From positions 1 to 47,455 of the forward strand of contig NZ_JACJRS010000044.1 in the NCBI RefSeq assembly GCF_014697375.1: 47,455 nucleotides of DNA, written 5' to 3'. The stretch comes from Phormidium sp. FACHB-1136. Lineage in GTDB: Bacteria; Cyanobacteriota; Cyanobacteriia; Phormidesmidales; Phormidesmidaceae. The notes beneath the pieces were generated by a model. The model did not search any database, was not told the origin of the DNA, and worked only from the letters and a program-made list of their open reading frames with translations. Below, one piece after another: positions 8,905 to 14,138 of the stretch. The position numbers and the translations under genes are program-made. Each line of letters begins with the position of its first letter. Positions within the stretch are counted from its first letter, which is position 1.

Positions 8905-9852
8905 CTAAGTCAACCCCAGCCTTGCACCGATGGTGGCCACAACAGACTGGCTGAGGGCCTTGTAGTCGTAGCCACCCTCTAGGCCAAAGAGAATTTTGTC
9001 GGTGACGCGCAGGGCGAATTGGGTGAAGGTTGCGTAGTCCTGGGGGTTCAGGTTGATGCTGGCCAAGGGGTCGGCGGCGGTGGCATCGTATCCGGCGCTG
9101 ATTAGCAATAAATCCGGGTTGAAGGCCCGCAGAAAGGGAATCGCCTGCTGGTCAAATTTCTTGTAGTAGTCGGCGCTGGTGCTTCCTGGTGGCATGGGCA
9201 AATTGAGGACGTTGTGGTGCAGTCCGGTTTCGGTGCTGCGCCCGGTGCCGGGATAGGCGGGAAATTGGTGCAGCGAACAGTAGGCTATGGCGGCGTTGGC
9301 CTCCACGAGGGACTGGGTGCCGTTACCGTGGTGAACATCCCAGTCTAAAAGGGCGACCCGCTGAATGCCGGGTTGCTGGAGGGCATAGTGGGCGGCAATG
9401 GCGGCGTTGGAAAAGAGACAAAAGCCCATGCCGCTATTGCGAATGGCGTGGTGTCCGGGGGGGCGCACTAGGGCAAAGGCGGAATGCCCCGTCTGTAGCA
9501 CGTAATCTACCCCATCCAACCACGCACTCACCGCCAGTCGTGCCGCTTCGTAACTTTGACGAGACACAGCCGTATCGCCATCCCAATAACCGCCGCCATC
9601 CGCCGCAAACTGCCGAATTTTCTCGATATAGCCAGGATCGTGGACAGCAACAATTTCCCGATCCACTGGGCGCTGATCGGCTGGGGTGGGTTCTCGCCAG
9701 TCTAAATGCTCGGCCCAGGGCGCGGCCTTCAGGGCGCTGACGATGGCCGTCAGTCGTCCGGCATTTTCCGGGTGAATTTGCCCTGTGTCGTGGTTGAGGA
9801 AGACTGGGGAATAGAAAATGGCAAAGTCGGCCAGGGAGAAGTCGTGGTGCAC
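8905..9852 (-). CDS. Histone deacetylase / acetoin-utilisation family deacetylase
   Basis: 315 residues from a GTG start. This is a zinc-dependent amidohydrolase of the HDAC/AcuC/APAH superfamily. Visible active-site elements are HPENAGR near the start, the His pair in RPPGHHA, the metal-binding LLDWDVHHGNGTQ, the second metal Asp in ISAGYDA, and LEGGYDY carrying the catalytic Tyr region. All are intact, so activity is expected. Bacterial members remove acetyl groups from small amines, polyamines or protein lysines; the substrate cannot be read from this sequence. It is followed downstream by the Uma2 gene on the same strand with a 44-base gap. Confidence 0.93.
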   Translation of the reverse strand: MHHDFSLADFAIFYSPVFLNHDTGQIHPENAGRLTAIVSALKAAPWAEHLDWREPTPADQRPVDREIVAVHDPGYIEKIRQFAADGGGYWDGDTAVSRQSYEAARLAVSAWLDGVDYVLQTGHSAFALVRPPGHHAIRNSGMGFCLFSNAAIAAHYALQQPGIQRVALLDWDVHHGNGTQSLVEANAAIAYCSLHQFPAYPGTGRSTETGLHHNVLNLPMPPGSTSADYYKKFDQQAIPFLRAFNPDLLLISAGYDATAADPLASINLNPQDYATFTQFALRVTDKILFGLEGGYDYKALSQSVVATIGARLGLT

Positions 9853-11930: not shown

Positions 11931-12061
11931 CAAGCGGGGAGCTTTGAGAAACACGAGCTTCAGGATCTTTTAGATCAGCACGTTGTTTCCCTCCATGAAG
12001 GCTAGAACAAAGCTAGGAAGTTCCTTGGAACAGGGGATGGGTGTTGTTTTGTGTGGATGTT

Positions 12062-13117
12062 ATGGAACTTTCTGTACAGCCCTTCACCGTGCATAAGCGG
12101 GTGCCCCTAACGATTAGTCGTGGCACCACGGCTACCTCTACAAATCTTTGGCTAAAAATTCGGGCTGATGGCCTAGAAGGCTGGGGCGAAGCGTCCCCAT
12201 TTTCCATTGGCACCCACCACCAACCCCTAGACATGCTCCAGCGGGATATGGTGCAGTTACGAGGGATTTTATCGGCCTATCATCCTTGGAATCGCCAAGC
12301 CATTGAGGCCGCGATTCAGCCCCTAGGGCTCCAGTCCGCTAGTCGGGCGGCGTTGGATGTGGCTCTATGGGATTGGTGCGGCAAAGCTACTGGACAACCC
12401 ATCTGGAAACTGCTTGGCCTAGATCCGAGCCGGATCGTGCCCACATCGGTCACGGTGGGTATCATGGCCCCCGAAGCCGCCTGCCAACGGGCTCAAGATT
12501 GGATGCATCAAACCCAGGCCCGTACCCTCAAAATTAAATTGGGCCATCCCTCTGGGATCGCCGCCGATCAGGCCATGTTCCAGGCCATTTATGATCAGGT
12601 ACCTGCCGATGTGTCGATCAGCGTTGATGCCAACGGAGGCTGGAACGTTGAGCAAGCCATCCAGATGGCCCAGTGGCTGGGAGAACGCGGTGTTACTTAC
12701 CTTGAGCAGCCTCTCCCGGTTCATCTCGATGACCAGATTCCTACCCTACGGAAACAATCTCCGCTGCCAATTTTCGTCGATGAGAGCTGCTTCCATGCCC
12801 AGGATATTTTGCGGTTGATGCCCCTCACCGATGGCATTAATATTAAGCTGATGAAGGCGGGTGGGCTAACCGCCGCTCTGCGGATGGTTCACATGGCCCA
12901 AGCCTGCGGCCTTCAGGTTATGTTTGGCTGCTACTCAGACAGTAGCCTCGCCAATAGTGCCATGGCCCAACTTGCTCCCTTGGCCCAGCACCTCGATCTC
13001 GACAGCCATCTCAACCTTTGCGACGATCCCTTCACAGGACTTATCCTCCGCCAAGGGTGCGTCTACCCCTCTGCCCACGCCGGACTCGGACTGACCTATG
13101 TATCTCCAGCCCCATAG
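12062..13117 (+). CDS. dgcA: Enolase-superfamily epimerase (dipeptide epimerase / DgcA-type)
   Basis: 351 residues from the ATG at 12062; a GTG at 12041 would add seven residues. This is a muconate-lactonising subgroup enzyme. Active-site elements are all visible: KIK (Lys157, Lys159), Asp189 in VDANGGW, Glu215 in YLEQP, Asp240 in FVDES, and Lys262 in NIKLMKAGG. The pattern fits L-Ala-D/L-Glu epimerases of peptidoglycan recycling and equally the N-acetyl-glutamate racemase DgcA. The next gene overlaps by 20 bases and is DgcN-like, which favours the DgcA role: racemising N-acetyl-D-glutamate to the L form. Family placement is sure; the substrate is inferred from the neighbour. Confidence 0.88.
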   Translation: MELSVQPFTVHKRVPLTISRGTTATSTNLWLKIRADGLEGWGEASPFSIGTHHQPLDMLQRDMVQLRGILSAYHPWNRQAIEAAIQPLGLQSASRAALDVALWDWCGKATGQPIWKLLGLDPSRIVPTSVTVGIMAPEAACQRAQDWMHQTQARTLKIKLGHPSGIAADQAMFQAIYDQVPADVSISVDANGGWNVEQAIQMAQWLGERGVTYLEQPLPVHLDDQIPTLRKQSPLPIFVDESCFHAQDILRLMPLTDGINIKLMKAGGLTAALRMVHMAQACGLQVMFGCYSDSSLANSAMAQLAPLAQHLDLDSHLNLCDDPFTGLILRQGCVYPSAHAGLGLTYVSPAP

Positions 13118-14138
13118 CCGCATTGCCCTGCTCATGCACGAAGGCTTGCAACGTGGAACGGGCAAAACCGGACTTGCCATGGTGCGCTACGGTCGATCCC
13201 CCGTCGTCGTCATCATTGACCATCAGTCGGCGGGGCGATCCTTGGCAGACCTCACGGGCATCCACCAGACCATTCCGATTGTGGATTCGGTCGCTGCGGC
13301 CTTCGCCTACCAACCCGATGTTCTCGTCCTGGGCATTGCTCCTTCCGGAGGGACATTACCGGAACCCTGGTTTCAGGAATTAGAGCAGGCCGTCACCGCT
13401 GGTCTCAGCCTCGTGAACCCCCTCCACACTCCCCTGGCTCAGCATCCCGACCTCATCCCCCACCTGCGATCCGATCAATGGATTTGGGACGTGCGCCAAG
13501 AACCCCCAGGACTTACCGTGGGTAGCGGTAAGGCAAGCCACCTGCCCTGCAAGCGCATCTTGGCCGTCGGCACCGATATGGCCGTCGGCAAGATGTCCAC
13601 TAACCTAGAGCTTCACCGAGCCTGTCGGGATCGGGGGCTTAAATCCAAGGTCATCGCCACAGGCCAAACCAACCTCATGCTAGGGGACGACGGTATTCCC
13701 CTGGATGCCATTCGGGTTGATTATGCCTCTGGAGCCATTGAACAGGCCGTCATGGCCTACGGTTATGACTACGATCTCCTCTTCATTGAGGGACAGGGTT
13801 CCCTCCTCAACCCAGCCTCCACCGCTACTCTCCCACTTCTGCGGGGAAGTCAGCCCACCCACCTGATCCTCGTCCATCGGCCAGGACAAACCCATATCAG
13901 CAATTGTCCCGACATCAAAATCCCTCCCCTTCCCCAAGTGATAACGCTTTACGAGCAAGTGGCCGCTGCGGGGGGAGCCTTTGCGGGAGCTAAGGTCGTA
14001 GGCATCGCTCTTAATACTGGGCATCTATCTCCAACGGCGGCGGCAGAAGTCATGAATGCCACCGAGCAAGACACGGGACTCCCCTGTGCCGACCTATTTC
14101 GAAATGGGGCAGACAAGCTACTAGCCGCTATCCTTTAA
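13098..14138 (+). CDS. dgcN: DUF1611 protein, DgcN-type D-glutamate N-acetyltransferase
   Basis: 346 residues, ATG start inside the end of the preceding epimerase gene. It has the two-part DUF1611 layout: an N-terminal Rossmann-like half (LVLGIAPSGG) and a C-terminal P-loop half with GTDMAVGKMS at residues 158-167, LLFIEGQGSLLNPAS and VVGIALNTGH. DgcN acetylates D-glutamate so that DgcA can racemise it, giving N-acetyl-L-glutamate that feeds arginine synthesis. The overlap implies translational coupling. The older annotation is simply DUF1611/EBNA-like. A cytoplasmic location is expected. Molecular function is inferred from family and pairing, not from substrate residues. Confidence 0.85.
   Translation: MYLQPHSRIALLMHEGLQRGTGKTGLAMVRYGRSPVVVIIDHQSAGRSLADLTGIHQTIPIVDSVAAAFAYQPDVLVLGIAPSGGTLPEPWFQELEQAVTAGLSLVNPLHTPLAQHPDLIPHLRSDQWIWDVRQEPPGLTVGSGKASHLPCKRILAVGTDMAVGKMSTNLELHRACRDRGLKSKVIATGQTNLMLGDDGIPLDAIRVDYASGAIEQAVMAYGYDYDLLFIEGQGSLLNPASTATLPLLRGSQPTHLILVHRPGQTHISNCPDIKIPPLPQVITLYEQVAAAGGAFAGAKVVGIALNTGHLSPTAAAEVMNATEQDTGLPCADLFRNGADKLLAAIL

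Follow-up and report, generated by a model that had tools for sequence, protein, structure and literature searches.

The window examined here is the whole 47,455-nucleotide stretch (positions 1 to 47,455, forward strand) of contig NZ_JACJRS010000044.1 from the cyanobacterium Phormidium sp. FACHB-1136 (assembly GCF_014697375.1), and the subject of this study is a pair of overlapping genes on its plus strand. The first gene (12062..13117, ATG at 12062 and stop codon at 13117, with an alternative GTG start at 12041 also open) encodes an enolase-superfamily epimerase/racemase of 351 amino acids, which resembles DgcA and the dipeptide epimerases and consists of the Pfam domains MR_MLE_N and MR_MLE_C. 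The second gene (13098..14138, ATG at 13098 and stop codon at 14138) encodes a protein of 346 amino acids with the Pfam domains DUF1611_N and DUF1611 and a predicted DgcN-like fold. An earlier interpretation made from the DNA letters alone (hereafter the sequence-only reading) had described an enolase-superfamily epimerase overlapping a DUF1611 gene by 20 bases, and the Pfam matches and the coordinates of the open reading frames (ORFs) agree with this description, the overlap being exactly 20 bases (13098..13117, plus strand). On the sequence comparisons presented below, the two genes form a real, conserved pair that most likely works like DgcN-DgcA and represents a separate clade of this known two-enzyme route.

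The closest relatives of the DUF1611 protein were found in named cyanobacteria at 70% identity ('Filamentous cyanobacterium CCT1' and Nodosilinea). Both genes are under selection as proteins, because they align end to end with those of CCT1, with no more than one gap per gene and 69-70% identity for both proteins, and because the changes are concentrated at the third codon position (86/57/202 and 85/45/203 changes at the first, second and third positions of the two genes). An overlap of 1-60 bases is the usual arrangement among related pairs (41 of 60 measured; commonest value 17 bases), with lengths that rest on start codons estimated from the alignment. The pair is flanked upstream by an alpha/beta hydrolase gene and a 93-codon ORF, and the next long non-nested ORFs downstream are on the minus strand. 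No flanking gene looks part of the unit, which in the window consists of these two genes.

The distribution of the two genes was surveyed in 292 genomes of the phylum. Matches to PF07755 were present in 91 genomes and matches to the window epimerase at 1e-10 in 98. PF07755 also matched in Synechococcus elongatus, which served as a control genome. Nine genomes whose DUF1611 matches were weak or partial, and 15 whose epimerase matches were weaker than 1e-40, were left out of the count, and the fragmentary epimerase of one of the former nine, G266, was kept. After filtering, 82 genomes had a full-length DUF1611 gene and 83 had the epimerase; both were present in 81, DUF1611 only in one, the epimerase only in two and neither in 208. 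A survey of adjacency across cyanobacteria had been proposed in the sequence-only reading, and here the two genes proved to be linked in 75 of the 81 pair-bearing genomes and apart in six. The epimerase lay upstream on the same strand in 70 of the 81 (the matches were no more than 600 bases apart in 65 and within 3 kb in five), and the order was reversed on one strand, with DUF1611 before the epimerase, in five. The reverse-order pairs belong to family f38, which comprises small-genome members of the phylum, and have the same order as the genes of Pseudoalteromonas.

The genomes with one gene were inspected individually. The sole DUF1611 gene of the DUF1611-only genome is of a second kind and stands beside a pyridoxal phosphate (PLP) racemase. 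One epimerase-only genome has a more distant epimerase (166 bits); in the other, G266, a single frame of 304 codons joins the beginning of the epimerase to the last part of DUF1611, as if one deletion had taken most of both genes. The pairing of DUF1611 and epimerase is not chance, and the partnership is near-obligate. A shared function is indicated because both genes are kept when unlinked and both are lost at once. In another genome (G174), an intact epimerase gene adjoins a DUF1611 gene split over two frames, through either decay or sequencing error.

A wider scan covered one genome per species in 84,980 species. At least 585 stretches encode relatives; the best 80 of these, most similar to the window, were kept, so this sample leans towards cyanobacteria. 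The epimerase was near DUF1611 on the same strand in 61 of the best 80 stretches. Paired loci were titled Planctomycetota/Pirellula, Armatimonadetes/Fimbriimonas, Natronohydrobacter, Paracoccaceae, Gammaproteobacteria, Acidiferrobacteraceae, Flavobacteriaceae and Deltaproteobacteria, and many of the non-cyanobacterial loci are metagenome bins in which contamination is possible. Gene trees were built from 52 hand-chosen rows per protein, and their likeness was judged by the main branching, with no congruence statistic. Both trees have the same main order, namely, cyanobacteria with planctomycetes inside, then a group of Armatimonadetes, Alphaproteobacteria, Gammaproteobacteria and Flavobacteriaceae, and then family f38, which is placed with modest support (87/73 and 93/75); they differ in details inside the cyanobacteria. 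The DgcN and DgcA rows are far off in the respective trees, separated by branch lengths of 2.27 and 2.02 changes per site. These trees suggest that the two genes have moved together. The shared main branching and the 81 shared genomes, against one and two with either gene alone, support the earlier proposal that the two proteins act together. That proposal had been framed for a pair in a cyanobacterium; the pair is indeed there, but it is no oddity of this genome, as it occurs in 81 of the 292 phylum genomes and in other phyla. Two bins labelled Fimbriimonadales (L077 and L078) contain a DUF1611 gene whose product is 62% identical to that of the window, with no epimerase in the stretch read, which may reflect contamination or transfer.

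The active site of the epimerase was examined by alignment with B. subtilis YkfB, and conservation was counted over 71 aligned rows of the window's epimerase type. All catalytic residues have counterparts on the plus strand of the window: the first catalytic lysine pair K157-x-K159 (12530..12538; 71/71 rows), the metal ligands D189 (12626..12628; 71/71), E215 (12704..12706; 70/71) and D240 (12779..12781; 70/71), the second catalytic lysine K262 (12845..12847; 70/71) and the DxD motif D312-L-D314 (12995..13003; 70 and 71 of 71). These roles are the ones we take the individual residues to play in YkfB. The active site is thus complete by alignment, as the sequence-only reading had maintained. 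Near the N terminus lies the motif I18-S19-R20-G21 (ISRG; 12113..12124, plus strand), which is the same in the window and in DgcA rows. Among paired rows, 63 of 68 that are of the window's type and 32 of 36 of the DgcA type carry it; the corresponding columns read IARG in E. coli YcjG and a few paired rows and TALR in B. subtilis YkfB. R20 may bind a side-chain carboxylate by analogy with YkfB, from which this role is presumably transferable.

An AlphaFold2 model of the DUF1611 protein (mean predicted local distance difference test score 92.1) was compared with solved structures. The nearest was Ava_3511 of Anabaena variabilis (PDB 2obn; Z 49.8 over 343 residues, 60% identity), a close relative whose deposit is titled only DUF1611 family protein. 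TM0796 (2g0t) followed with Z 38.0, and solved DgcN (7xrj, DgcN-25328) with Z 36.4 and a root-mean-square deviation of 3.7 over 325 residues at 32% identity. The modelled protein is thus predicted to have the fold of DgcN. The next matches were P-loop proteins (cobyrinic acid a,c-diamide synthase and dethiobiotin synthetase), at Z of about 13-14 and to the C-terminal half only; Pfam describes DUF1611 as Rossmann-like in its N half and P-loop in its C half. The P-loop of the window protein is GTDMAVGK (G158-K165; 13569..13592, plus strand), with M after the loop in place of the usual S/T, and G158, T159, D160, G164 and K165 are invariant in both alignments. This loop may hold the phosphates of coenzyme A (CoA) and not hydrolyse a nucleotide. 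No GNAT protein was present among the 50 matches listed each by Foldseek and VIA, in which P-loop proteins were listed, an absence that proves nothing.

The nearest known counterpart of the pair is found on a plasmid of Pseudoalteromonas sp. CF6-2, which carries dgcR-dgcN-dgcA; we take CF6-2 to be the strain of the original DgcN-DgcA study. In a paper in ISME J, DgcN reportedly acetylates D-glutamate and DgcA racemises the resulting N-acetyl-D-glutamate. Excerpts of two articles (PMC10845958, PMC12363236) support both activities. The window pair resembles this system in belonging to the same two families, in its adjacent, overlapping genes (by 7 bases in CF6-2), in its catalytic residues, ISRG and DxD motifs, and in the fit of the DUF1611 model to the fold of solved DgcN. 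It differs in gene order, which is epimerase-DUF1611 in the window and DUF1611-epimerase in CF6-2, and in the upstream gene: dgcR is present in CF6-2, whereas no LysR-type dgcR stands just upstream of the window pair, where the hydrolase gene and the 93-codon ORF are found (the opposite-strand genes downstream were not scanned).

On this likeness, the pair can be described as a module that first acylates and then racemises. The DUF1611 protein would N-acylate a D-amino acid, with D-glutamate as the likeliest substrate and acetyl from acetyl-CoA as the likeliest acyl group. The epimerase would then invert the acylated amino acid at its alpha carbon via a metal-stabilised enolate, using K159 and K262, and the product, N-acetyl-L-glutamate, would enter arginine synthesis directly. 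We give an even chance to such a DgcN-DgcA-like module yielding N-acetyl-L-glutamate from what is probably D-glutamate; the acetyl donor, the D-glutamate substrate, the D-to-L direction and the entry into arginine synthesis are the presumptive parts of the scheme. ArgJ was found in the window's genome, so N-acetyl-L-glutamate would have a ready use there.

The following observations weigh against the scheme. The window epimerase scored 202.4 bits against the DgcA model NF042940 (cut-off 400) and the window DUF1611 protein 212.8 bits against the DgcN model NF041892 (cut-off 480), so both stayed at about half of cut-offs that the CF6-2 controls pass (412 for DgcA and 493.4 for DgcN); none of the 292 phylum genomes passed the DgcN cut-off. 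In the DUF1611 tree, five DgcN rows lie on one side of a branch with 100/100 support, and in the epimerase tree, E. coli YcjG groups with the four DgcA rows in a clade of their own (100/100); the window protein is outside in each case. By these criteria, the window proteins form a separate clade and belong to neither the named DgcA nor the named DgcN family. In the earlier reading of a dgcA-dgcN-like pair, the family assignments, the overlap, the complete active site and the joint action are supported, and D-glutamate is the probable substrate. Among 100 columns invariant in the five DgcN rows, 52 are unchanged in at least 90% of 30 cyanobacterial rows, and in 23 the cyanobacterial rows conserve another residue. 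Two alphaproteobacterial genomes, titled Natronohydrobacter and Paracoccaceae (loci L136 and L146), each hold a window-type pair together with a dgcN-dgcA pair, which hints at different substrates or controls. The DxD motif is kept although N-acetylglutamate has no free amine, and the DgcA rows keep it too; in dipeptide epimerases, this motif presumably meets the free amine of the dipeptide. ISRG is also present in four of six DgcA-type rows without DUF1611 within 1.5 kb, so the motif is not tied to pairing. No third gene family occurs near the pair in more than 14 of the 87 loci read, and the neighbourhood consequently names no source or sink of D-glutamate in cyanobacteria. Lastly, the sister row of the window's epimerase group, at modest support (94/77), is the solved structure 3iji, a presumed dipeptide epimerase.

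Several of these points would suit a pair with the same chemistry and another substrate (D-Asp, D-Gln or another D-amino acid) or another acyl donor. The separate clade on long branches in both trees, the 23 columns conserved differently from DgcN and the presence, in two cases, of both pair types within one genome all point in this direction. So does position 291 of the window epimerase, which is Y in the cyanobacterial and planctomycete rows shown and M in DgcA rows and most others. R20 of ISRG, by analogy with the DgcA rows, would instead fit an acidic side chain. We consider this alternative possible, if rather improbable. In the family of the Natronohydrobacter genome, DgcA-like genes were present in 105 of 120 genomes, and of the 30 such loci read, 26 had a DUF1611 gene no more than 1.5 kb away.

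The epimerase could also be an L-Ala-D/L-Glu epimerase (AEE) for murein peptides released by an AvPCP-type endopeptidase, with the DUF1611 protein acting in another way on the same peptides. Its nearest solved structures include several named dipeptide epimerases; the nearest of all is its sister row 3iji, deposited as a muconate cycloisomerase and which we take to be the dipeptide epimerase of Bacteroides thetaiotaomicron, and the DxD motif is intact. The AEEs (YkfB, YcjG and 3iji) share with the window protein the fold family, the catalytic residues and DxD (the latter two are not discriminating, being present in DgcA rows as well), and they differ at ISRG, which 3iji lacks and YcjG has as IARG. 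The window epimerase reached the cut-off of neither AEE model (141 bits on PRK15129, cut-off 343; 131 bits on NF041118, cut-off 500). The DgcA and AEE models themselves overlap: 3iji prefers the DgcA model (226 against 159 bits on the AEE model), and E. coli YcjG, an established L-Ala-D/L-Glu epimerase, is placed among the DgcA rows in the tree and, even when truncated, reaches 400.2 bits with the DgcA model. For these reasons, sequence does not separate the two activities. Three candidate discriminating tests were rejected: preference for the DgcA over the AEE model, as 3iji shares it and YcjG reaches 400.2; DxD, as DgcA rows carry it as well; and ISRG, as IARG replaces it in a few paired rows and as it is present in most DgcA-type rows that lack a DUF1611 neighbour.

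Genomic context bears on the murein-peptide alternative in both directions. The genome that contains the window encodes an orthologue of AvPCP (2hbw, 280 bits). An excerpt of PMC2954226 describes this YkfC-like enzyme type of cyanobacteria as freeing L-Ala-gamma-D-Glu and reports a ykfB-ykfC neighbourhood in B. thetaiotaomicron, and part of PMC3605383 mentions AEE genes in cyanobacteria. However, 132 of the 139 class genomes encode the endopeptidase, of which 62 have no pair, and the enzyme is absent from six of the 76 pair-bearing class genomes and from the five pair-bearing genomes of family f38. No positive association with the pair was seen among class genomes (70/76 pair-bearing against 62/63 others). 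A dedicated dipeptide route is not an obvious reason for the pair, because the distribution of the endopeptidase does not follow it. This alternative would also leave the near-absence of the epimerase without DUF1611 unexplained, and we judge it unlikely. The link to peptidoglycan recycling drawn in the sequence-only reading gained nothing from the sole enzyme tested for it, since this endopeptidase does not co-occur preferentially with the pair.

For the DgcN-DgcA-like module speak two neighbourhoods outside the cyanobacteria. In the Paracoccaceae locus (L146), an M55 D-aminopeptidase gene follows the pair, and a Haladaptatus plasmid (L067) has in a row a D-aminoacylase, a dipeptide epimerase, a more distant DUF1611, a second dipeptide epimerase and a Pab87-type serine hydrolase. 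These catabolic D-amino-acid neighbours at two loci of other groups also argue against a pair working in the L-to-D direction to supply an N-acyl-D-amino acid for use in signalling, in storage or in a natural product, as does the broad distribution of the pair without a recurring third gene. Enolase-superfamily racemases are reversible, but nothing specific favours this direction, and it is highly improbable. As for the suggested link to cyanophycin, the synthetase was found in 105 of the 292 genomes and in 61 of the 81 pair-bearing ones, with 20 lacking it. It is commoner with the pair within the class (61/76 against 36/63; p 0.005, no correction for descent), so that an association is weak at most.

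No paper on this pair in cyanobacteria was recognised by title or start of abstract in the open literature (subscription papers were not covered). A broader and tentative proposal is that cyanobacteria and other phyla contain an unrecognised acyl-CoA-dependent module, which may convert wall-derived or environmental D-glutamate into N-acetyl-L-glutamate and feed the PII-controlled arginine pathway while bypassing free L-glutamate. DUF1611 proteins might then serve racemases generally as acyltransferase partners; two unrelated racemase folds, and perhaps also two distinct lineages of epimerase, would have recruited them. If the route makes N-acetyl-L-glutamate, it would give phototrophs another source of the precursor of arginine and may link the turnover of the wall with nitrogen metabolism. 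The solved cyanobacterial structure 2obn would gain a testable function. The named DgcN-DgcA families represent just one branch of a wider partnership; therefore, counts resting on the cut-offs of the named models would miss the other branches.

DUF1611 also stands beside a racemase that belongs to an unrelated family (Ala_racemase_N). The DUF1611 gene is then of a second kind, with a product in a separate clade, and lies directly beside an alanine/ornithine-family PLP racemase gene; this arrangement was seen in seven phylum genomes and on two plasmids, one from Phaeobacter and one from Vibrio. Of the seven loci in the phylum, L168 partly reads N and L169 is broken into two frames. A further gene row precedes the pair in L136 and the DUF1611 gene in L140 (where no epimerase ORF was called); it comprises genes for a beta-keto acid cleavage enzyme, a GNAT protein and a deacetylase-like protein, joined in L136 by one for a class III aminotransferase, and is reminiscent, by analogy, of a breakdown route for acetylated amino acids. 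The histone-deacetylase-like gene is immediately adjacent in both loci, and the window has one on the minus strand (8905-9852; 32.6% to the L136 relative over 230 residues). As a candidate third member, this gene was dropped, as no other searched locus has one besides L136 and L140. The neighbours of four unlinked copies (two kinase-type proteins, UvrD and an SH3 protein) had nothing in common, and the one family f38 locus scanned (NadA, a flavoprotein, GGDEF/HD and AhpC) had no link to D-amino acids. DUF1611 genes were found on seven IMG/VR contigs called viral, next to a Na+/H+ antiporter gene and in five also next to a UmuC-type polymerase gene; these contigs are probably bacterial or prophage DNA. 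A DUF1611 match was present in 102 plasmid records, including Klebsiella (20), Vibrio (16), Sinorhizobium (14) and Pantoea (12), and many of those listed are annotated dgcN.

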